A stretch of DNA of 33,839 nucleotides from an uncultured Ruminococcus sp. (lineage in GTDB: Bacteria; Bacillota; Clostridia; Oscillospirales; Acutalibacteraceae): assembly GCA_902774325.1 (NCBI GenBank), contig CACYIC010000044.1, positions 1 to 33,839 of the forward strand. The letters are read 5' to 3'. How positions within the stretch are numbered: position 1 is the stretch's first letter; each line of letters begins with the position of its first letter. Below the pieces are notes generated by a model that was given only the letters and a program-made list of their open reading frames with translations, searched no databases and was not told the DNA's origin. Below, in pieces: positions 9,555 to 25,582 of this stretch. Made by a program: the position numbers and the translations under genes.

Positions 9555-9701
9555 TACGTTTATGATTGTTATACGTTTGTTTTTCGTTTGCTGCGGTGTG
9601 TGCATCGCCATAATGAAGCGTAACTCTCTCGCGGAAAACAGTCCACCGGACTGTTTTCTTTTCGCTCGCCTTCGAGTCCTGTCAGCCGCTTGCTTGTACA
9701 A

Positions 9702-9740
9702 ATATAATTGAGGGCGGTCAAATGACCACCCTCAATTATA
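9702..9740 (-). terminator. terminator after the tRNA-Leu 3' fragment
   Basis: TATAATTGAGGG and its complement form a long stem around TCATTTGA, one base after the CCA end of the tRNA fragment on the minus strand. Confidence 0.75.
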
Positions 9741-9790
9741 TGGTGCGCCTGACAGGACTTGAACCTGCACCCCGAAGGACCGGAACCTAA
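9741..9790 (-). pseudogene. 3' half of a tRNA-Leu, probable att site
   Basis: Read on the minus strand, this contains the 3' part of an anticodon loop and stem (TTAGGTTCCGG), a long variable arm (TCCTTCGGGG), a complete T arm (GCAGGTTCAAGTCCTGT), an acceptor strand CAGGCGC, A and CCA. The long variable arm makes it class II, and it aligns with the intact tRNA-Leu at 11335. The 5' half is missing: the sequence diverges exactly in the anticodon loop. This is where many integrases leave an attachment site. Nineteen bases (9752-9770) are identical to the intact tRNA-Leu (11346-11364). Confidence 0.8.
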
Positions 9791-9953
9791 TGGTAATGTC
9801 ATCTCGGTAAAAGAAAAAGTCGAGGCTTCCCATCAAAAAATCGACCGTATCTGTCTGTATCACCCAAGTAATACTTAATGACGCATACTTTTTGTTGATT
9901 GCTCCATATTATAAGGTTAGAATTTCGAAGGCTTTTTTATCTTTACTGTTAAC

Positions 9954-10781
9954 TTATATGTTTTTGTTTGCAAAGTCGCGTGCTTCGTTAAGGTCTATGC
10001 CGAGCGCATCCGCTGTGTTGATGGTTATCTTGCAGCCGTCTTTCACCTTCTGCATGATCAGCTTCATGATAGCTTCATTTACCGCAACGCAGCCGCCTGT
10101 GTAGGGCTTGACAAGACTCATGCAGTGAAAGAAGAAGCAGGAGCCCTCTCCGTGTACACATTCGCTGTTGTAGCCCATGTTCAGACAGTAGGTGTACTCG
10201 TAGGTGTAGTCAATGAGGTGTTCGCTTTCCTCGGTATCGAGATCGGGAACATCCTTAATGTTAACAAACTCATTGAAGTGCATGCCCTCACGCTCATCTC
10301 CCGACCAGTAATCATCCTCGGTTACCTTGGTATATTCCATCTGACAGCCGGGGTCGTCCGCAATACCGAAAGCCTTATCAATGGTGAAGGTGCCGATCGG
10401 TGTGACCGCGTGATAGCTGTCTGCTTTGCCCATACCCTCAAGTCCGATATATCCGGGCGTCTGAAGTATCATTTTCCAGTTGCCGTCGGCGTCCTTTTCG
10501 TGCATGCTGACATAGCAGGTGGTTTCTCCGACGCCGGCTACGACGATCAGCTGATCGCAGTCCTTTGCCGCATCGAGCTTTGTGAACCATTTGGGAGAAT
10601 CAACGACCTTTTGGCTTTGAATATGCAGGCTGGCTTCACTTGTTGTGCCGCTTGCGGCTGTATTACTCTCGGAAGGAGTACTGCCGCAGGCGGTCAGTAC
10701 TGCTGCTGCCATCAGAACAGCTAAGATGACACAGAGAAGCCTTCTTGCAAGTCTATTGGTTTTATTCGTTCTTTTCATCAT
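9954..10781 (-). CDS. L,D-transpeptidase-like (YkuD-type) lipoprotein
   Basis: A 275-residue exported protein. The lipoprotein signal ends VLTAC (Cys32), followed by a Ser/Thr-rich spacer. The domain contains TPIGTF (about 127-132), typical of the YkuD fold. Near the C-terminus is FFHCMSLVKPYTGGCVAV, with His219 and Cys231 in the place of the catalytic HxnTGGC motif. Enzymes of this family cross-link or trim peptidoglycan outside the membrane. Usual members have S/T-x-GC-V/I-R; here the Arg after Cys is replaced (GCVAV), so activity is not certain. The open frame runs upstream to 10919 into a toxin-gene remnant. I place the start at 10781, next to AAAGGA and before the signal sequence. Confidence 0.8.
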   Translation of the reverse strand: MMKRTNKTNRLARRLLCVILAVLMAAAVLTACGSTPSESNTAASGTTSEASLHIQSQKVVDSPKWFTKLDAAKDCDQLIVVAGVGETTCYVSMHEKDADGNWKMILQTPGYIGLEGMGKADSYHAVTPIGTFTIDKAFGIADDPGCQMEYTKVTEDDYWSGDEREGMHFNEFVNIKDVPDLDTEESEHLIDYTYEYTYCLNMGYNSECVHGEGSCFFFHCMSLVKPYTGGCVAVNEAIMKLIMQKVKDGCKITINTADALGIDLNEARDFANKNI

Positions 10782-10826
10782 AGTATTGATCCTTTCCGTT
10801 TTGATTATGGGATTGATTAGTATGAT

Positions 10827-10962
10827 ACCTTCATAGTCGTGAACAAGTCTATGCCGCAAACCGGAGACAACGCTCCACGGTATATCCGGGTGTGATTGTT
10901 TAAATTCAGGACTGAGCATATAAACCTGTTGATGATCTTTTTCAGGCGTTCTTTATCGAAAT
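10827..10962 (-). pseudogene. broken HepT-like HEPN toxin gene
   Basis: Directly after the MntA-like gene, one frame reads EDFDKERLKKII, like the start of HepT/DUF86 proteins. After about 30 bases another frame reads FKQSHPDIPW and then RHRLVHDYEG, the conserved C-terminal part with the RX4H ribonuclease motif. About 60 codons of the middle are missing with a frame change, and the extreme C-terminus is lost into the following lipoprotein leader. It cannot encode a working toxin. Confidence 0.75.
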
Positions 10963-10964
10963 CT

Positions 10965-11255
10965 TCACGCGATCTTCACTCCTTCTTTCATCAGGTTGTC
11001 ATAAAATGGAGTGTCGCGGTTGACTTCACTGATTTCAAATACATCTGCGTTTTTTCCCAGCGCTTCTCTAAGATCCTCGGCGAAAGCAAAAATATTGGAT
11101 TTCTTAATATCCTTGCCGCCGAAAACAACTACGTCGATATCGGAATCAGGAGTTTCCTCGCCTCTGGCGTAGGAGCCGAACAACAGCGCGTATTCCGCGT
11201 TGTAGCGAACAAGCAAGCTCTTTATTGTATTTTCAATATCAATCCTTGTTGGCAT
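10965..11255 (-). CDS. MntA-like nucleotidyltransferase antitoxin
   Basis: A 96-residue minimal nucleotidyltransferase with LFGSYARG and DSDIDVVV (about residues 25-44), the metal- and nucleotide-binding motif of MNT proteins. In intact HepT/MntA systems this enzyme adds AMP to the HEPN toxin and silences it. Here the partner directly downstream is deleted, so it is an orphan antitoxin. The start at 11255 follows AAAGGAGCTGATGGT; the longer frame to 11378 runs through the tRNA-Leu and is not real. Confidence 0.85.
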   Translation of the reverse strand: MPTRIDIENTIKSLLVRYNAEYALLFGSYARGEETPDSDIDVVVFGGKDIKKSNIFAFAEDLREALGKNADVFEISEVNRDTPFYDNLMKEGVKIA

Positions 11256-17150: not shown

Positions 17151-18938
17151 TTATTCAAGAGGCTCAAAATCAGCGACGCCGTGCTTGCAGAGCGGGCAGA
17201 TAAAGTCATCCGGGAGCACGTCGCCCTCGTAGATATATCCGCACACCTTGCAGACGAAGCCCTTCTTGCCCTCGGGCTGAGGCTTGGGCTTGACGTTGTT
17301 CTGGTAGTAGGTGTAGGTCATTGTCTCCTTGTCGGAGGTCACTCTCGCCTCGGTGACGGCGCAGATAAACATCCCGTGGGTGTCGAGGTCGATATACTGC
17401 TCAACTCTAAGCGACATGAAGGAATTGATATACTTGGGCAGGAAGGCGAGTCCGTTGTCGGAGCGGAGAAGCTCCCATTCCGCGAACTTGTCGACTTCCC
17501 TGCCGCTTTGGAAGCCGAAATGCTCAAACACCTTGAAGGGCGCTTCGACCGAGAGGCAGTTGACGTTGAGCTTGCCGGTATTCTTGATCACGTCGTGAGA
17601 ATAGTTCTGCTTGTTGATGGTCACGGCGATACGGTTGGGCGTATTTGTGACCTGGGTGACGGTGTTGACGATCAGACCGTTGTCCGTTTTGCCGTCGTTG
17701 GAGGTGACGACATAAAGACCGTATCCGATATTGAAGAGCGCGGTGAGGTCGTTCTTGTCGGCGGTCTCGTCGTGCTGGGCAAGATAATCCATGCACATCT
17801 CGGCGGCGAGCTTATCGAGCTGGAGCTTGTTGTCCTCGCTCATCGCCGACTTGATGGTAACGGTGTCGAGGAAGGTGAGGTTCTTGGAGTCCGCGAGCAT
17901 ATTCTTCATGACCTTGGCGGCGAGGGGCGCCCATGAGCCGTTTTCGATGAGGGCGATAGTCTTGTTGCGGAAATTGCGCTCGGTGAGGTGGTTGATGAAC
18001 TCGCGCATGAAGGGGAAGATCTCAGCGTTGTAGGTGGTGGTGGCGAGCACGATCCTGCCGTAGCGGAAGGCGTCCTCAACGCACTCCGCCATATCCTCGC
18101 GGGCGAGATCGTTGACAACGACCTTGGGGCAGCCGTTGATCCTGAACTGCTCGGCAAGATACTCCACCGCCGCCTTGGTATGACCGTAAACCGAGGTGTA
18201 GGCGATCATGATGCCGTCGGTTTCAACGCTGTAGGACGACCAGGTGTTGTAGAGGTCGAGGTAATAGCCGAGGTTCTCGGTCAGCACGGGACCGTGCAGC
18301 GGGCAAATGATCTGAATATCGAGCTTAGCAGCCTTTTTGAGCACAGCCTGCACCTGAGCGCCGTACTTGCCGACGATCCCGATATAATATCTTCTCGCCT
18401 CGCACGCCCAATCCTCATCAACGTCAAGCGCGCCGAATTTTCCGAAGCCGTCAGCCGAGAAAAGCACCTTGTCTGTGCTGTCGTAGGTCATTATGACCTC
18501 GGGCCAGTGAACCATGGGAGCGGCTACAAAGCTGAGGGTGTGAGCTCCGAGCTCAAGGGTGTCGCCCTCGGAGACCACGATCCTCCTGTCGGCGAAATCG
18601 GTGCCGAAGAAGTTCTTCATCATGGCGAACGCCTTTGCCGAGGAAACGACAAGCGCCTCGGGGTATTTCTCGGTAAAATTCTTGATATTCGCGCTGTGGT
18701 CGGGCTCCATGTGCTGAACCACGAGGTAGTCGGGCAGCCTTCCGCCGAGCGCCTTGTCGAGATTCGAGAACCACTCGTCGGTAAAGTTTTGGTCAACGGT
18801 GTCCATAACGGTCACGAGCTTGTCCATGATGAGGTAGGAGTTGTAAGCCATGCCGTTGGGCACGTCGTACTGTCCCTCAAAAAGGTCGATCTTATGGTCG
18901 TTCACGCCGATGTAGATGATATCCTTTGTAATATTCAT
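17151..18938 (-). CDS. flavodiiron protein with flavin-reductase and rubredoxin domains
   Basis: Reduces oxygen to water (or NO to N2O) in the cytoplasm and so protects an anaerobe. It has 595 residues in four modules. The metallo-beta-lactamase-like diiron domain has ligands His76, Glu78, Asp80, His81, His144, Asp163 and His215. A flavodoxin domain (about 245-385, TSVYGHTKAAVEYL) binds FMN. A flavin-reductase-like domain (about 410-550) follows. The C-terminal rubredoxin has CKVCGYIYEG ... CPLCKHG. With rubredoxin and flavin reductase in one chain, electrons from NAD(P)H may be delivered without separate partners. The start at 18938 has GGAGG eight bases upstream; the frame to 19025 overlaps the promoter and is rejected. 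Monocistronic. Confidence 0.95.
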   Translation of the reverse strand: MNITKDIIYIGVNDHKIDLFEGQYDVPNGMAYNSYLIMDKLVTVMDTVDQNFTDEWFSNLDKALGGRLPDYLVVQHMEPDHSANIKNFTEKYPEALVVSSAKAFAMMKNFFGTDFADRRIVVSEGDTLELGAHTLSFVAAPMVHWPEVIMTYDSTDKVLFSADGFGKFGALDVDEDWACEARRYYIGIVGKYGAQVQAVLKKAAKLDIQIICPLHGPVLTENLGYYLDLYNTWSSYSVETDGIMIAYTSVYGHTKAAVEYLAEQFRINGCPKVVVNDLAREDMAECVEDAFRYGRIVLATTTYNAEIFPFMREFINHLTERNFRNKTIALIENGSWAPLAAKVMKNMLADSKNLTFLDTVTIKSAMSEDNKLQLDKLAAEMCMDYLAQHDETADKNDLTALFNIGYGLYVVTSNDGKTDNGLIVNTVTQVTNTPNRIAVTINKQNYSHDVIKNTGKLNVNCLSVEAPFKVFEHFGFQSGREVDKFAEWELLRSDNGLAFLPKYINSFMSLRVEQYIDLDTHGMFICAVTEARVTSDKETMTYTYYQNNVKPKPQPEGKKGFVCKVCGYIYEGDVLPDDFICPLCKHGVADFEPLE

Positions 18939-19009
18939 AATCCAGCCTCCTGTAAGATTGATGCCGATCTCCGTTTTTTCGGTTATCGGTATTGGTTTTT
19001 CTTTCATAT

Positions 19010-19038
19010 ATTTTACAATTTTCATGAGGATATGTCAA
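19010..19038 (-). promoter_or_regulatory. sigma-A promoter of the flavodiiron gene
   Basis: TTGACA (19033-19038) and TAAAAT (19010-19015) on the minus strand, 17-base spacer. Confidence 0.78.
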
Positions 19039-19078: not shown

Positions 19079-19107
19079 TTGATAAAACTACAATAATATG
19101 GTATAAT
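19079..19107 (+). promoter_or_regulatory. sigma-A promoter of the zinc-ribbon/TPM/radical SAM operon
   Basis: TTGATA (19079-19084) and TATAAT (19102-19107), 17-base spacer, 37 bases before the first start codon. Confidence 0.78.
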
Positions 19108-19143: not shown

Positions 19144-20778
19144 ATGGTACAATGTCCAACCTGCGGCGCGGGTCTGCGATTTGATATCGCCTCGCAGCTC
19201 GCTGTCTGCGACCATTGCCAAAACAGGTTCGACCCAAAGGAGATAAGAGATAATTTCGGGGATGAGGCAAAAACCGAAAAAGCCTTTGACAGCTTTGTTT
19301 TCGTATGCCCCTCCTGCGGCGCCGAGCTCGACACCACCGACAAAAACGACGCCGTGGGCTTCTGCCCCTACTGCGGCGGCGCGTCGATGATATTCGACAA
19401 GATCCGCAGGGACTGGATCCCCGAGAAGGTGGTTCCCTTTCAGATCACCAAGGAGCAGTGCAAGGAAAAATATATCGCGGAGGTCAAAAAATTCCCCTTT
19501 GTTTCCCGCAAGTTCCGCGATCCGAAGTTAATAGAGAGCTTCCGCGGCATCTATATGCCCTACTGCGACTTCGAGGGCGCTGTAGACGGAAAAGTAACGC
19601 TTCAGGCTTTGGGAGCGGAAAAGGACGTCGGAAACTATTACTACGAAACAAACCTCTATGAGATCACCGGAAACGCCAAATATATCATAAACGGCGGCTC
19701 CTCGCACGACGCCTCGATCGCCTTTGACGACCATATCAGCGAAAGAGTCGCGCCCTTTGACCCGAAAAAAGAGCAGGATTTCCGTCCCGCTTATCTGAGC
19801 GGCTTCTACGCCGAGACCGGAAATATCGACATGAACGAATACGGCCCCGTGCTGCTTGACAAGATGATTCCCACCGTGACAAAGCAGATGGCGTCCGACT
19901 CTCTGATCAAAAACTCGGTCCCCGGCGACAATATTTCCGTAAACACCTCGCATTCCGAAAACCGGATCCCCATGAAGATATCTCCGGTCCATCGGAAGCT
20001 CTTCCCCGTTTGGTTCATGAGCTACCGCGTCGGAGATAAGATAACCTACGCCGCCGTAAACGGAGAAAGCGGCAAGGTCGTCGCGGATCTGCCGCTCAGT
20101 CCGCTCAGGATCCTCATCGCGGCGCTTATCTGCTCCGCCGCGATCTTCGGTCTGCTCTTCCTGCTCATGAGCTTCCTTCCCACGCTTCCCGCCGCGACGA
20201 CCCTCGCCGTCTGCACCATGCTGGGCTTCACCGGGATGTACGTTCTGCAGCATTCCTATATAAATACCGTTGGCGGCGCGCTCAATCAGGACGAGCTCAA
20301 AAAGAAAATGCCGATCTCGTTCATCGTGTTCTCGGTGCTCGCGACGGTCGGACTCATACTCATCACCACCGACGGCACCTATGAGCAAATGCGATGGCTG
20401 ATCGGAATGGTCATGGCGGGCTTTTCGATGTTGAGCCTCGTGACCCGTTTTTACATCAAGCAGGCGACGCTCACCTCCAAGATCAAAAAAATAGAGCTGA
20501 AGGGTCAGTCCATGCAGACAAACGGAATCCTGATCGAAGCAAAGAGATTCAACGTCATCAATAACATCGTCAGAATCATCACCTTCATCACCCTCGGACT
20601 CTTCCTTCCGATCATTCTTGACGGAACCTGGGGCAGCGGGGGCTTCTACGCCCTTTCGGGCGTCGCCGCCGCCGAGCTCTTCGTTCTCGCGCTGATGCAC
20701 ATCCGCTTCCAATCCAGGGTAGCCCTGCGCAGGCTTCCGCAGTTCAACAAGAAGGGAGCGGCTTACGATGAAAAATAA
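19144..20778 (+). CDS. membrane protein with two N-terminal zinc ribbons
   Basis: A 544-residue protein. The N-terminus holds two zinc ribbons, CPTC...CDHC (about residues 4-24) and CPSC...CPYC (about 54-77). A soluble domain of about 230 residues follows, and then a membrane part from about residue 315 with six or so hydrophobic segments (for example ILIAALICSAAIFGLLFLLM). This is the TFIIB-type zinc-ribbon membrane protein often found beside TPM-domain proteins in Clostridia; neither function is established. Its end overlaps the start of the TPM gene by 11 bases, so translation is coupled. AAGGAG precedes the ATG at 19144. Confidence 0.87.
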   Translation: MVQCPTCGAGLRFDIASQLAVCDHCQNRFDPKEIRDNFGDEAKTEKAFDSFVFVCPSCGAELDTTDKNDAVGFCPYCGGASMIFDKIRRDWIPEKVVPFQITKEQCKEKYIAEVKKFPFVSRKFRDPKLIESFRGIYMPYCDFEGAVDGKVTLQALGAEKDVGNYYYETNLYEITGNAKYIINGGSSHDASIAFDDHISERVAPFDPKKEQDFRPAYLSGFYAETGNIDMNEYGPVLLDKMIPTVTKQMASDSLIKNSVPGDNISVNTSHSENRIPMKISPVHRKLFPVWFMSYRVGDKITYAAVNGESGKVVADLPLSPLRILIAALICSAAIFGLLFLLMSFLPTLPAATTLAVCTMLGFTGMYVLQHSYINTVGGALNQDELKKKMPISFIVFSVLATVGLILITTDGTYEQMRWLIGMVMAGFSMLSLVTRFYIKQATLTSKIKKIELKGQSMQTNGILIEAKRFNVINNIVRIITFITLGLFLPIILDGTWGSGGFYALSGVAAAELFVLALMHIRFQSRVALRRLPQFNKKGAAYDEK

Positions 20779-21592
20779 GGCAATAAAAGCGGCGTTCTGC
20801 CTCGCCCTCGCGCTTATCCTCGCGCTTAGCTCCGTTGTTATCGCGGGCGCGTCGGATGAGCCGAAATACGTCGATCCCGATACCGACTACAAGGTTATTA
20901 TCATGGACGACGACGACCTTCTCACAAGCTCGGAGGAGGCAAAGCTCGTCGAGGATATGATGCCTCTGACAAAATTCGGAAACATCGCCTTCTGGACAAC
21001 GAGCGAAGACGCCTCCAATGAGATCGAGCAGGCGCGCCTCAAGCGCAAGGAGCTCTTCGGCGCCGACAGCGCGGGTATATTCGTGATAAATATGAACATC
21101 CGCAAGCTCACGATCCAGTCCTACGGCGCAATCAACGACTTTGTCAACGATTCCTACGCCCGCTCGATCACCAACAACGTCAGCCACTACGCGACCTCAA
21201 AGGATTACTACCGCTGCGCGCAGGAGGCGTTCTCTCAGATGCTCGACGTCTGCAACCAAAAGCATATCAGCGAGCCTCTTAAGGTCAGCGGCTACATCGT
21301 GATCTCGATCATGCTCGGACTCATAATCGCGCTGGGAGTCGCCTTCTCCAAGCGCAATAACCCGCTGCTTCAATACGACGTCGGAGAATACGGAAACGAC
21401 TTCAAGGCAAGCGGCTCCTTTACGGCTCCCGTCGCCGCTCGCTGCACGGGAAAGAACACGGCTCACCGCCCGCCCGCTCCCAAGTCGTCAGGCTCGTCGG
21501 GCTCGAGCTGCTCCTCGTGCTCAAGCTGCTCTTCGTGCTCCAGCTGCTCCTCGTGCTCAAGCTGCGGAAGCGGCGGAAGCTCCTCCTTCTAA
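20768..21592 (+). CDS. TPM-domain membrane protein with seven-Cys Ser-Ser-Cys tail
   Basis: A 274-residue protein. The signal peptide is residues 1-29. A TPM domain (about 42-165; IIMDDDDLLTSSEE, FGADSAGIFVINMN) would lie outside the membrane. One membrane helix (174-194) is followed by KR, so the remainder is cytoplasmic. The tail (about 240-274) has Cys at 248, 251, 254, 257, 260, 263 and 266, each pair separated by two Ser, then GSGGSSSF. Relatives I know end in Ser/Gly-rich tails such as SSGGGGG; an ordered Cys tail is different. The next gene, three bases on, is a radical SAM/SPASM enzyme, which suggests that this tail is its substrate. That link is inference from position and composition. 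Confidence 0.88.
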   Translation: MKNKAIKAAFCLALALILALSSVVIAGASDEPKYVDPDTDYKVIIMDDDDLLTSSEEAKLVEDMMPLTKFGNIAFWTTSEDASNEIEQARLKRKELFGADSAGIFVINMNIRKLTIQSYGAINDFVNDSYARSITNNVSHYATSKDYYRCAQEAFSQMLDVCNQKHISEPLKVSGYIVISIMLGLIIALGVAFSKRNNPLLQYDVGEYGNDFKASGSFTAPVAARCTGKNTAHRPPAPKSSGSSGSSCSSCSSCSSCSSCSSCSSCGSGGSSSF

Positions 21593-21595
21593 GGC

Positions 21596-22579
21596 ATGGA
21601 AGGCTTCGGCTATAAGGATTTCACCCTGCAGTGGCATATCACCCACCGCTGCAATCTTCGCTGCAGGCATTGCTATCAGGACGATTACAGCGCCTTCGAC
21701 AGCCTTGACGACCTCCTTCCCGTGCTCGATCAGTTCAGCGCCCTGCTAAAGGAATACGGCTGCGTCGGGCGGCTCAATCTCACGGGCGGCGAGCCGCTGA
21801 CCCACCCCGACCTGTTCAGGCTGCTGACCCTCGCCCGCGAGCGCGGGATACGCACGGGAGTGCTCACGAACGGCACCCTGCTGGGGGAATGGGAGGCGCG
21901 CAGGCTCAGGGCTTGCGGCGTGGATTACGTCCAGGTCAGTCTTGACGGCTGCAAAAGCGTCCATGACTCGATACGCGGCAAGGGCAGCTTTGACCGCGCC
22001 GTAAGCGGGATAATCGCGCTCAGGGCGCAGAATATCTTCACAAGCGTGTCCTTTACCGCTCAGAGCCAAAACCTGCGCGAGCTTCCCAAGCTCGCCCGAT
22101 ACTGCGACGCGCTCGGAGTTGACAAGCTCTGGTTCGACAGGGTAGTTATTCCCGACGCCGAGGACAAGGACAGGCTAACCCTTTCCGCCTCTGATTTCCG
22201 CAGGCTCACAAACAAGGCGGCGGCTCTCAACCGCCGGGGAAAGGTGTTCTGCGGCAGATCGCTCCAGTTCATCCCATGTAAGAAAAAGCTGTTTTACCGC
22301 TGCGCGGCGGGCGACAACCTGCTGATCGTCCTCGCAAACGGCGACGTGATGCCCTGCCGCAGACTCCCGATCGTGATCGGAAACGTCCGCGACAGCGACC
22401 TGCTGACCCTTCACCGCGAAAGCCCCGTTATGAGGGAGCTGCGCGGGCTGGGGATCCCCGATGGCTGCAGGGACTGCAAATACGCCGAGATGTGCCGCGG
22501 CGGTTCAAAATGCGTCGCCTACGCCAAAACGGGAAGGTACGACGTCCCCGACCCCGATTGCCGGCTGGCGCTCTCATGA
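21596..22579 (+). CDS. radical SAM/SPASM protein, candidate maturase of the TPM Cys tail
   Basis: A 327-residue cytoplasmic enzyme. The 4Fe-4S/SAM motif is CNLRCRHC (Cys19, Cys23, Cys26), followed by LTGGEPL (about 63-69). The C-terminal SPASM region has Cys at VMPCRRLP, a following GNVRDSDLLTLH and a cluster CRDCKYAEMCRGGSKC, which normally binds one or two further clusters. SPASM enzymes are mostly peptide or protein modifiers: thioether cross-links, carbon-carbon cross-links, sulfatase activation. The gene starts three bases after the TPM stop, and its only weak ribosome site is AAGG, so it depends on translational coupling. No separate leader-binding domain was seen. The alternative of a heme- or cofactor-type SPASM enzyme is less supported by context. 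Confidence 0.9.
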   Translation: MEGFGYKDFTLQWHITHRCNLRCRHCYQDDYSAFDSLDDLLPVLDQFSALLKEYGCVGRLNLTGGEPLTHPDLFRLLTLARERGIRTGVLTNGTLLGEWEARRLRACGVDYVQVSLDGCKSVHDSIRGKGSFDRAVSGIIALRAQNIFTSVSFTAQSQNLRELPKLARYCDALGVDKLWFDRVVIPDAEDKDRLTLSASDFRRLTNKAAALNRRGKVFCGRSLQFIPCKKKLFYRCAAGDNLLIVLANGDVMPCRRLPIVIGNVRDSDLLTLHRESPVMRELRGLGIPDGCRDCKYAEMCRGGSKCVAYAKTGRYDVPDPDCRLALS

Positions 22580-22690: not shown

Positions 22691-22723
22691 AAAACCCGAG
22701 GTTTCAAACACCTCGGGTTTTTT
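22691..22723. terminator. bidirectional terminator between the radical SAM operon and nrdG
   Basis: AAAACCCGAGGT and ACCTCGGGTTTTTT form a perfect stem with T-runs on both strands. It ends the rightward operon and the leftward nrdDG transcript. Confidence 0.9.
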
Positions 22724-22756: not shown

Positions 22757-23293
22757 CTAGATTTTTCCGCTTGCGGGAGTATAAAGCATGACCTCTCCGC
22801 TTTTGAGCGACTTCTTCACGTCGATTATCCTCTGGTTGGAGCTTCCCCTGAATTGCAGGCGGATATCATGCAGAGCCTCGACGTACTCGCCGTCTACGAG
22901 GATATCAATATACGAAAGCATTTCGTCGGTAAACTCGCAGCGGGCGCGGCTCTCCGAAAGCAGCTCCCTGTCAAAAAGATAGCCGGTATAGCACCAGATG
23001 TTTTTCTCGGGGAACCTCTCTCTCACCTTTCGCAGGAAAGGCAGCAGCGCCGCTTGATTCTCCGGCTCAAACGGCTCGCCGCCAAGGAGTGACAGACCGT
23101 CGATATAACCGGGAGAAAGCTCCCTGAGAAGCAGCTCCTCGGTTTCGGCGGTAAAAGGTTTTCCGTAGTCAAAGGACCAGGTTTCCCTGTTGAAGCAGTT
23201 TTTGCAGTGATGGGTGCACCCGGACACGAACAGCGAAACTCTCACGCCCTCGCCGTTCGCTATATCAAAATTCTTGATCTCGCCGTAATTCAT
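22757..23293 (-). CDS. nrdG: anaerobic ribonucleotide reductase activating protein
   Basis: A radical SAM enzyme of 178 residues that installs the glycyl radical on NrdD. The cluster motif is CTHHCKNC (about residues 26-33), followed by SLLGGEPF (about 68-75). Its ATG shares one base with the nrdD stop (TGATG at 23291-23295), so the two are translationally coupled and made together. Length is normal for the family. Confidence 0.95.
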   Translation of the reverse strand: MNYGEIKNFDIANGEGVRVSLFVSGCTHHCKNCFNRETWSFDYGKPFTAETEELLLRELSPGYIDGLSLLGGEPFEPENQAALLPFLRKVRERFPEKNIWCYTGYLFDRELLSESRARCEFTDEMLSYIDILVDGEYVEALHDIRLQFRGSSNQRIIDVKKSLKSGEVMLYTPASGKI

Positions 23294-25374
23294 CAGAGGT
23301 GAAGCACCCTCTCGCGGATCTCCTGGGTCCTGCCCTGGTTCCAGAACTGAGTGCCGATATAACCGCAGGTCCTTCTGGCGACGTTCATCTTATCCTGATC
23401 GCGGTTGTGGCAGTGCGGGCACTCCCAGAGGAGCTTGCCGTCCTCGGGGATATTGTCCTGCATATTGGGGACCTCAACGTAGCTGATCGCGCCGCCGGGA
23501 GAAAGCGCCTGGAACTCGGATTCGAGCTTGAGCTTGTCAAAGGCGCTGATATCCTCCGTGACGTGGACATGATAGCTGTTTGTGATATAGTTGCGGTCGG
23601 TCACGCCCTTGATGATGCCGAAGCGCTTTTGCAGGCATTTGGCGAATTTGTAGGTCGTGCTCTCAAGGGGAGTTCCGTAGATGCTGTAATCAATATTTTC
23701 CGCAGCCTTCCATTTCGCGCAGGCGGCGTTGAGGCGGCGCATGATCTCAAGACCGAGCTCCTTGCCCTCCTCCTCGGTGAGCTTCTTTCCGATAAGGCTG
23801 TAAACGCATTCCCAGAGTCCCGCGTAGCCGAGGGAGATCGTGGAATAGCCGCCGTAGAGAAGCTTGTCGATGGTCTCGCCCTTTTGGAGTCTGGCGAGGG
23901 CGCCGTACTGCCAGAGGATCGGGGCGGCGTCCGAAAGCGTGCCCTTGAGCCTTTCGTGGCGGGTGCGCAGCGCTCTGTGGCAAAGCTCCATCCTCTCGTC
24001 AAAGATCTCCCAGAATTTCTTCATGTCGCGGTTGGCGCTCAGACCGATATCGACGAGGTTCACGGTGACGACGCCCTGATTGAAGCGTCCGTAATACTTG
24101 TGCTGACCCTCGACATAATTGCCCGCGTTGGCGATATTGCCCACTCCCGCGTCGGTAAAGCGGTCGGGAGTGAGGAAGCTGCGGCAGCCCATGCAGGTGT
24201 AAACGTCGCCCTTGAGCTCAAGCATGACCTTCTCGGAGATGTAGTCGGGAACCATGCGCTTCGCGGTGCACTTCGCGGCAAGCTCGGTGAGATACCAGTA
24301 CTTGCTGCCGGCGGTCACGTTGTCCTCCTCAAGAACATAAATGAGCTTGGGGAACGCGGGGGTGATCCAGACTCCCGCCTCGTTCTTTACGCCCTGATAG
24401 CGCTGCTTGAGGGTCTCCTCGATTATCATGGCGAGATCAGCCTTCTGCTGCTCGTTTTCAGCCTCGTTGAGGTACATATAAACGGTGACGAAGGGCGCCT
24501 GACCGTTGGTGGTCAGCAGGGTCACTACCTGATACTGGATAGTCTGTACGCCGCGGTTGACCTCCTTGCGAAGGCGCTGCTCAACGATCTCATCTATCTT
24601 GTCCTCGCTGACCTCAACGCCGAGCTCCTCGATCTCCGCGAGGGTCTCCCTGCGGATCTTCTCTCTCGAGATCTGGACGAAGGGCGCGAGATGGGTGAGG
24701 CTGATGCTCTGTCCGCCGTACTGATTGCTGGCTACCTGCGCGATGATCTGGGTAGCGATGTTGCAGGCGGTGGAAAAGCTGTGGGGCTTTTCTATGAGGG
24801 TGTCGCTGATGACCGTGCCGTTCTGGAGCATATCCTCGAGGTTGACGAGGTCGCAGTTGTGCATGTGCTGCGCGAAATAATCGGAGTCGTGGAAATGGAT
24901 AAGACCCTGCTTGTCAGCCTCGACGATGTCGGGCGGGAGCAGCATCCTGCGGGTGAGGTCGCGGCTGACCTCGCCTGCCATATAATCCCTCTGGACGCTG
25001 TTGACGGTCGGGTTCTTGTTGGAGTTCTCCTGCTTGACCTCCTCGTTGTTGCACTCGATCAGCGAAAGGATGCGGTTATCGGTGGTGTTCGCCTTGCGGA
25101 CAAGCGAACGGTTGTAGCGGTAGCGGACATATCGGCGGGCAAGCTCAAAGGCGCCCTTTGCCATGAGCTGATCCTCTACCATGTCCTGGATCTCCTCGAC
25201 GGAGACCGCGCGGTTCATCTTGTTGCACTTGTATTCAACATAGTCGGCGATGTCTGTGATCTGCTCCTCCGTCAAAAACGGGCTGTCGGCTGAATTGTTC
25301 GCCTTTCTGACAGCGTTGATGATTTTCTCTATATTGAAAACCTCTTCGGAGCCGTTTCTCTTGATGATTTTCAT
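23293..25374 (-). CDS. nrdD: anaerobic ribonucleoside-triphosphate reductase
   Basis: Reduces NTPs to dNTPs without oxygen, using a glycyl radical. It has 693 residues. The N-terminal ATP-cone domain (KIIKRNGSEEVFNIEKI onward, about residues 2-90) senses ATP/dATP. The catalytic body contains GGQSISLTHLAPF and a run of conserved residues through the middle. The C-terminus has CPHC near 650, the RRTCGYIG radical site (Gly at about 671) and the end ERVLHL. I chose the ATG at 25374, preceded by GAGGGAAG; the TTG at 25404 has no ribosome site. Control by NrdR is indicated by boxes at 25583-25630. Confidence 0.96.
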   Translation of the reverse strand: MKIIKRNGSEEVFNIEKIINAVRKANNSADSPFLTEEQITDIADYVEYKCNKMNRAVSVEEIQDMVEDQLMAKGAFELARRYVRYRYNRSLVRKANTTDNRILSLIECNNEEVKQENSNKNPTVNSVQRDYMAGEVSRDLTRRMLLPPDIVEADKQGLIHFHDSDYFAQHMHNCDLVNLEDMLQNGTVISDTLIEKPHSFSTACNIATQIIAQVASNQYGGQSISLTHLAPFVQISREKIRRETLAEIEELGVEVSEDKIDEIVEQRLRKEVNRGVQTIQYQVVTLLTTNGQAPFVTVYMYLNEAENEQQKADLAMIIEETLKQRYQGVKNEAGVWITPAFPKLIYVLEEDNVTAGSKYWYLTELAAKCTAKRMVPDYISEKVMLELKGDVYTCMGCRSFLTPDRFTDAGVGNIANAGNYVEGQHKYYGRFNQGVVTVNLVDIGLSANRDMKKFWEIFDERMELCHRALRTRHERLKGTLSDAAPILWQYGALARLQKGETIDKLLYGGYSTISLGYAGLWECVYSLIGKKLTEEEGKELGLEIMRRLNAACAKWKAAENIDYSIYGTPLESTTYKFAKCLQKRFGIIKGVTDRNYITNSYHVHVTEDISAFDKLKLESEFQALSPGGAISYVEVPNMQDNIPEDGKLLWECPHCHNRDQDKMNVARRTCGYIGTQFWNQGRTQEIRERVLHL

Positions 25375-25582
25375 ATTCTTCCCTCTTTCTTCGCGTTTTT
25401 TCAAAATCTAATTCCGTTCTCCGGCGAAAAGCTCAGGCTTCCGTCCGGAGAAAAACCGCCGGCGCGTTTCCGGTCGCGCCCGCGGACCCGATAAAGCCGA
25501 AAAATCGCTCTCGGGTTTTCTTACGTGCGAGATTAATTATACATCAAGATTTTCGAAAAATCAAGTGTCAGTTTCGCCAAAA

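Follow-up and report, generated by a model that had tools for sequence, protein, structure and literature searches.

Most known peptide-modifying systems built on radical S-adenosylmethionine (SAM) enzymes with a SPASM domain act on small precursors. According to PMC8172795, GggB of the streptosactin pathway forms S-Calpha bonds between Cys and Ser and between Cys and Gly, and QhpD is a radical SAM enzyme acting on a large protein subunit. Cys/Ser/Gly tails of TIGR04222 membrane proteins have been proposed as targets of MNIO (DUF692) enzymes encoded alongside (PMC12452194); in that article radical SAM appears solely in two reference titles. Here we describe a three-gene operon in a window of 33,839 nucleotides, the whole stretch of DNA that was analysed, from an uncultured Ruminococcus sp. 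(Bacillota, Clostridia, Oscillospirales, Acutalibacteraceae; assembly GCA_902774325.1, contig CACYIC010000044.1). A TPM-domain membrane protein with a Cys-rich C-terminal tail is encoded there directly before a radical SAM/SPASM enzyme. Comparison of predicted proteins showed this enzyme clade paired with a Cys tail in all 16 clade genomes found, and we consider it quite probable that the enzyme modifies the Cys tail of the full-length membrane protein, whatever the bond.

The operon is compact, with the zinc-ribbon and TPM genes overlapping by 11 bases and the TPM and enzyme genes separated by 3 bases. The TPM product ends in SSGSSGSSCSSCSSCSSCSSCSSCSSCGSGGSSSF, in which seven cysteines lie at residues 248-266 (nt 21509-21565) with all six spacings exactly 3. 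Both the coupling of the three genes and the (Ser-Ser-Cys)7 tail with Cys at every third residue had been claimed in the original prediction, made from the sequence alone, and were re-found. The seven 9-base units of the repeat comprise five distinct DNA sequences with mixed Ser codons, which argues for upkeep of the tail at the protein level. The protein passes the Pfam TPM model (PF04536) with 34.3 bits against a cut-off of 22.1, the domain covering residues 45-159. A hydropathy script found a first hydrophobic segment at residues 8-26, a signal or anchor, and a second at 175-193; the single membrane helix described previously corresponds to the second, and the N-terminal segment had been overlooked. 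Because the helix at 175-193 is followed by the basic stretch FSKR, this simple script, which is not a trained predictor, suggests that the TPM domain lies outside and the tail in the cytoplasm. The NCBIfam scan of the protein gave no match to the ACGX-repeat peptide model (TIGR04341; E up to 0.1) and none to the TIGR04222 domain. The unit also differs from a classical cluster for ribosomally synthesized and post-translationally modified peptides (RiPPs), which would hold a small precursor with a leader and a peptidase or exporter; here a 274-residue membrane protein stands in a three-gene unit.

The last gene encodes a radical SAM/SPASM protein (Pfam Radical_SAM 82.6 bits, cut-off 29.5; SPASM 34.2 bits, cut-off 21.5), and the Pfam matches together with invariant residues confirmed the CX3CX2C and SPASM cysteines described before. 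CX3CX2C lies at residues 19-26 and is invariant in all 12 enzymes aligned. The SPASM motif reads CX9-15GX4C, CX2CX5CX3C and C; all seven of its cysteines are present (236, 254, 291, 294, 300, 306 and 322) and equally invariant, with CX5C standing in place of CX3C. None of the best 25 of 87 NCBIfam models was above its cut-off, the highest being SbtM (TIGR04082; 148 bits, cut-off 350), with the ACGX enzyme model (TIGR04340) at 147 bits against a cut-off of 400. An AlphaFold2 model built with 12 sequences had a predicted local distance difference test score (pLDDT) of 86, and the closest PDB folds were PqqE, SkfB, SuiB, BlsE and anSME, mostly peptide-modifying SPASM enzymes.

A pattern-based scan of an 84,980-species set returned 11 enzyme loci, from records titled Ruminococcaceae, Ruminococcus, Clostridiales, Clostridia or Oscillospiraceae. 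A TPM gene that is intact and encodes a Cys/Gly/Ser tail stands immediately upstream of the enzyme in nine of these (overlap to 50-base gap; the enzyme start is unsure in L011 and L014, and L004, with the same genes as L014, was counted once). L006 has a broken or misassembled zinc-ribbon/TPM part, with an intact 3-Cys tail just before the enzyme; in isolate P7 (L010) the enzyme stands alone, and a zinc-ribbon/TPM pair with a 5-Cys tail lies on another contig. Further searches found the enzyme in 2/200 genomes of the family (E up to 1e-40) and in 4/394 of the order (E up to 1e-60), G314 and G491 being new. In the phylum 5/398 genomes matched (E up to 1e-50): the window genome, G888 (260 bits), L053/L057 (243 bits), L054/L058 (232 bits) and L055/L059 (184 bits), the last being a mycofactocin-type enzyme (TIGR03962, 400 bits, cut-off 265). 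Overall sampling amounted to 1956 genome-searches, many genomes being searched more than once. Fifteen of the 16 clade enzymes are encoded directly behind the gene of a membrane protein with a Cys/Gly/Ser tail, the two genes overlapping or lying at most 50 bases apart, and that of P7 is paired in trans; one genome, G961, was reached via its TIGR04222 protein and is not independent on the enzyme side, and without it the counts are 14/15 and 1/15. The 18 tails, with ends set by a script rule, contain 82 Cys-Cys spacings, of which 69 are either exactly 3 (51) or 6 (18).

A search for TPM proteins was also run without reference to the enzyme. With a profile of the cassette TPM body, strong matches came only from the two enzyme-bearing family genomes; 11 weaker matches, the window genome's second TPM protein among them, had a zinc-ribbon neighbour and no enzyme. 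A broader TPM profile gave 85 matches in 75/197 order genomes, of which three rows are second domains of the same protein, and one TPM frame was read per locus. The control set comprised 81 proteins (80 loci and the window genome's second TPM, the window cassette being excluded) plus 10 family loci, 91 in all. No Cys occurs within the last 50 residues of any of these 91 TPM proteins, for which the stretch read (about 1.3-2.5 kb per side, up to about 5 kb at family loci and less at contig ends) contains no clade enzyme, whereas all 12 enzyme-paired TPM proteins have Cys tails, 11 adjacent to the enzyme, including one apparently broken gene, and one in trans. Absence of the enzyme from whole control genomes rests on the searches of 200 family and 394 order genomes, among which these genomes are placed by their handle numbers. 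The Cys tail thus tracks the SPASM gene as had been expected, while adjacency, which had been expected always, held in 11 of the 12 TPM cases and failed in P7. One control locus, L088, holds a SPASM gene of weak similarity (50.8 bits), and the TPM protein encoded there has no Cys either; in G314, where a clade enzyme is present and its operon partners bear the Cys tails, the TPM protein (L128) has no tail Cys.

The unpaired tails consist of Ser, Gly, His, Arg and Lys and often end in HGGGGGKF. Their earlier description as plain Ser/Gly tails was right for Ser and Gly and imprecise in that His, Arg and Lys are also usual. Many ordinary TPM tails of the order end approximately in STHxSSSGRSHGGGGGKF, with His present and mostly a final Phe. 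The His residues bear on a rival explanation, namely that the Cys tail binds a metal or Fe-S cluster unmodified and the SPASM enzyme acts elsewhere in the same pathway. An exchange of His for Cys would fit such a function, and the TPM neighbour has zinc ribbons. The same enzyme clade is found, however, beside different tailed membrane proteins, and related ACGX enzymes adjoin Cys-repeat peptides, both of which argue against a tail that is no substrate; we consider that explanation improbable.

The reading of a modified tail is strengthened by tails of the same kind on other membrane proteins. In four genomes they are borne by non-TPM proteins, namely an unnamed family (G314 and G491) and TIGR04222 proteins (G888 and G961). 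G314 encodes three tandem paralogous membrane proteins of the unnamed family (open reading frames (ORFs) of 392-512 residues; L036:2223-6422) before one enzyme, all three with GGC or SGC/SSC repeats at the end, and G491 (L037) encodes a single such tailed protein before its enzyme. As a side observation, the first tandem copy of L036 contains, according to the search, three in-frame TAA codons within its match. The unnamed family had no Pfam match (two of its four proteins tested) and no NCBIfam match with E up to 0.01 (all four), and it was found in 1/245 order genomes, G314, itself an enzyme carrier. The TIGR04222 partners have a Cys-dotted Gly tail (128 bits for the protein of L056, cut-off 43); in both G888 (L056) and the related G961 (L097), their gene overlaps with that of the enzyme or lies almost against it. 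TIGR04222 was present in 2/9 genomes of the family of G888 and in none of 249 phylum genomes, where no control genome matched either, making this weak evidence. A CRISPR-like array of six repeat copies with 61-base spacing also lies in G888 (L056:10672-11001). We considered whether the unnamed family and TIGR04222 share an ancestor; hhalign gave a probability of 2.5%, and of three members one reached the TIGR04222 model with E 0.06, which is suggestive only, and we therefore do not claim three unrelated protein families.

In a tree of 26 rows the 16 tail-linked enzymes group together (support 86/94), and sub-groups track the partner: TPM with 12 members (96/89), the unnamed family with two (100/100) and TIGR04222 with two (100/100). 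Several outgroup rows are long-branched and their placing is unsure. These data also speak to the explanation by chance or hitch-hiking, in which tail and enzyme are functionally unlinked parts of an ordinary three-gene cassette. It would be favoured by the rarity of the TPM-type cassette, with the enzyme in two of 200 family genomes, and by the single clade that the 12 TPM cases form. Against it, tail and enzyme are paired again, on further membrane proteins, in other families of the phylum, one genome holds three tandem tailed genes, and P7 keeps both genes though they are unlinked. Among eight weaker SPASM enzymes, moreover, there is none with a neighbour bearing a Gly/Ser/Cys tail, though one of them (L157) comes after a small protein whose end resembles a zinc ribbon. 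This explanation was already disfavoured and we regard it as very improbable. The recurrence on other membrane proteins is a stronger argument than the comparison of 12 with 91. That the enzyme modifies the tail is likely, as predicted from the gene pairing; of the original proposal, which made the tail of a full-length membrane protein the target of the enzyme, the pairing is borne out by the 12/12 and 0/91 counts, and from it we infer the modification itself.

For a tail modified in this way the following course can be proposed. Once the TPM protein is inserted in the membrane, its TPM domain would lie outside, while its low-complexity (SSC)n tail would reach into the cytoplasm and meet the enzyme made from the same operon. 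The [4Fe-4S] cluster held by CX3CX2C would cleave SAM, and the 5'-deoxyadenosyl radical would abstract hydrogen from Ser or Gly carbons next to the cysteines, the SPASM auxiliary clusters accepting the electron. In one repeat after another, Cys sulphurs would then be bonded to carbon as thioethers, each with a loss of 2 Da, and a floppy tail might become a series of linked small rings that could perhaps bind metal or serve as a scaffold. Whether the bond is a thioether we judge about evenly balanced. The enzyme may instead modify the tail without thioethers, by formylglycine formation (an anSME-like oxidation of Ser or Cys), dehydro-residues, epimerised residues or a heterocycle. Consistent with this, anSME structures are among the nearest folds (TM-score, query, 0.71-0.74), the top NCBIfam model, albeit below cut-off, is SbtM, named as a thio(seleno)oxazole maturase, and one enzyme clade is common to tails of very different Gly/Ser/Cys make-up. 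On the other hand, Cys alone tells paired tails from unpaired ones, both kinds being rich in Ser and Gly, and the anSME target motif, C/S-X-P-X-R, is not found in the tail. We hold such chemistry to be possible though rather doubtful, and count it as part of the probability given to modification as a whole.

Several observations weigh against a modified tail, or against thioethers in it. The 12 TPM cases form one clade, and 12 versus 91 are not independent events; the enzyme clade was, moreover, delimited after the tails had been seen. The tail of L013 has only two cysteines, and in P7 the enzyme and tailed TPM genes are unlinked. Streptosactin rings join residue i to i+3, and ring geometry is a real question here because position i+3 in (SSC)n is again Cys. 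The enzyme begins with the radical SAM core, without an N-terminal recognition domain, and there is no PqqD gene inside the window operon. The enzymes nearest to the clade by score from outside it (L053 and L054; 243 and 232 bits, compared with 260 for the TIGR04222-linked enzyme of G888) lie beside PqqD genes, and no neighbouring ORF of at least 70 residues encodes a Cys tail, a limit that a smaller peptide could escape.

Stand-alone PqqD proteins were observed in P7 (L010:5530-5790, minus strand), divergent and beside the enzyme gene, and as an orphan in the window genome (L161:1492-1752, minus strand), the two being 55% identical. No CX3CX2C protein was found in the 3.2 kb read around the orphan. 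A stand-alone PqqD is an unproven candidate for the recognition partner of the enzyme.

The first gene of the operon encodes a 544-residue protein with an N-terminal double zinc ribbon, a soluble part and about five C-terminal hydrophobic segments. Pfam DZR and DUF7575 matches were below cut-off, the eight zinc-ribbon cysteines are invariant in 8/8 sequences, and the structure model (pLDDT 68) was judged too poor for a fold search. This protein had been proposed as the third part of the system. A zinc-ribbon neighbour is, however, also present at all 11 enzyme-free TPM loci (L018-L028), and the ORF lists of the four non-TPM tail loci contain no separate zinc-ribbon gene. We rejected it as a specific component, as it accompanies TPM genes generally.

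Among SPASM enzymes of a control set of 59 order genomes (E up to 1e-20), the top two after the window enzyme were ACGX enzymes (L149 and L150), both above the ACGX enzyme cut-off and with adjoining ACGX-repeat peptides (TIGR04340 and TIGR04341 both passed). Beside the peptide gene of each (L149:1459-2946 and L150:1426-2909) lies a small regulator-like gene on the opposite strand, which we take to be HxlR-like. The eight weaker enzymes (L151-L158) showed no Gly/Ser/Cys-tailed neighbour, and the one following the zinc-ribbon-ended small protein, L157, belongs to the window genome. Mobile elements gave one remote plasmid match for the enzyme, on an Indioceanicola plasmid (L064) where TIR and SIR2 genes adjoin those for radical SAM and PqqD proteins, one weak viral-contig match, and no plasmid match for the TIGR04222 body. 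The plasmid cassette of radical SAM/PqqD type (L064:3048-10344) lies beside TIR-like ThsB and SIR2-type ThsA genes, and another (L058:4336-9572 and 9678-11000) beside a bSEFIR-like protein and the BREX genes BrxL and PglZ. A link of peptide maturases to defence loci is possible in these two cases.

The features of the operon region are collected below. Promoter-like sites numbered 6 in the region compared with a mean of 2.3 in shuffles. The hairpin downstream of the operon is possibly a terminator common to the operon and the convergent nrdG/nrdD genes. We saw no tie between the opposite-strand flanking genes and the operon.

Features of the tail/enzyme operon and its flanks (window coordinates)
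Feature	Position	Strand	Remarks
Flavodiiron/rubredoxin-type protein (flank)	17151-19025	-	
Sigma-70-like promoter TTGATA-17-TATAAT	19079-19107	+	TG ahead of second hexamer; 11/12 matches
Zinc-ribbon membrane protein gene	19144-20778	+	544 aa; ORF calls
TPM-domain protein gene	20768-21592	+	274 aa
Ser/Gly/Cys tail	21479-21589	+	37 residues, ends GSGGSSSF; sequence reading
Radical SAM/SPASM enzyme gene	21596-22579	+	327 aa
Hairpin with T-run	22691-22721		12 pairs; strand unassigned, scan scored minus strand only
Anaerobic ribonucleotide reductase and radical SAM activase-like gene (flank)	22757-25404	-	

If the tails are modified as proposed, tails that are cross-linked or hardened in another way would represent a novel type of modification of membrane proteins, the Gly/Ser/His tail of ordinary TPM proteins being the unmodified counterpart, and SPASM chemistry would extend into membrane biology. 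The odd low-complexity tails of TPM and TIGR04222 proteins would gain a testable function, and the gene pair of substrate and enzyme is self-contained, with a predicted mass shift open to direct check. More broadly, we lean slightly towards a SPASM "tail maturase" subfamily that rewrites Cys/Gly/Ser tails on several membrane proteins, with TIGR04222 tails served by two unrelated enzymes, radical SAM and MNIO.

We found no literature on this enzyme/tail pairing, in a search covering few subscription journals, and none on ACGX with radical SAM. The ACGX systems (TIGR04340/TIGR04341) are alike in that a related SPASM enzyme adjoins a Cys repeat, and differ in having a small peptide of A-C-G-X repeats as substrate and in an enzyme model whose cut-off the window enzyme does not reach. 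SbtM is similar as the top-scoring model, and differs in that the match spans only positions 199-500 of a model of length 516. The heterocycloanthracin/sonorensin peptides have CX2 repeats and are small substrates of a YcaO-type enzyme; they differ from the tails here in that size, and the corresponding model (TIGR03601) reached only non-significant values on (GGC)n tails (E 3 to 8). GggB resembles the proposed chemistry in SPASM-catalysed joining of Cys to Ser and Gly, and QhpD in its large-protein target, while the passages of PMC8172795 describe neither a membrane-protein tail nor a repeat with Cys at every third residue. Closest in architecture are the TIGR04222/MNIO pairs, in which an ordinary-size integral membrane protein with a disordered, Cys-dotted Ser/Gly tail is encoded alongside a RiPP-type iron enzyme, as proposed in PMC12452194. 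MNIO is unrelated to radical SAM, and the tails are predicted there to be periplasmic, whereas the TPM tail is predicted to be cytoplasmic here; the two TIGR04222 proteins of our set (L056 and L097) pair instead with the clade radical SAM enzyme. Already known are SPASM maturases of Cys repeats and low-complexity Cys tails of membrane proteins as putative targets of RiPP enzymes. The clean contrast with enzyme-free relatives is new, and so, judged by sequence comparison, is a SPASM subfamily that lies below every NCBIfam cut-off among those 25 best models and whose predicted partners are the tails of full-length membrane proteins, including TPM proteins.

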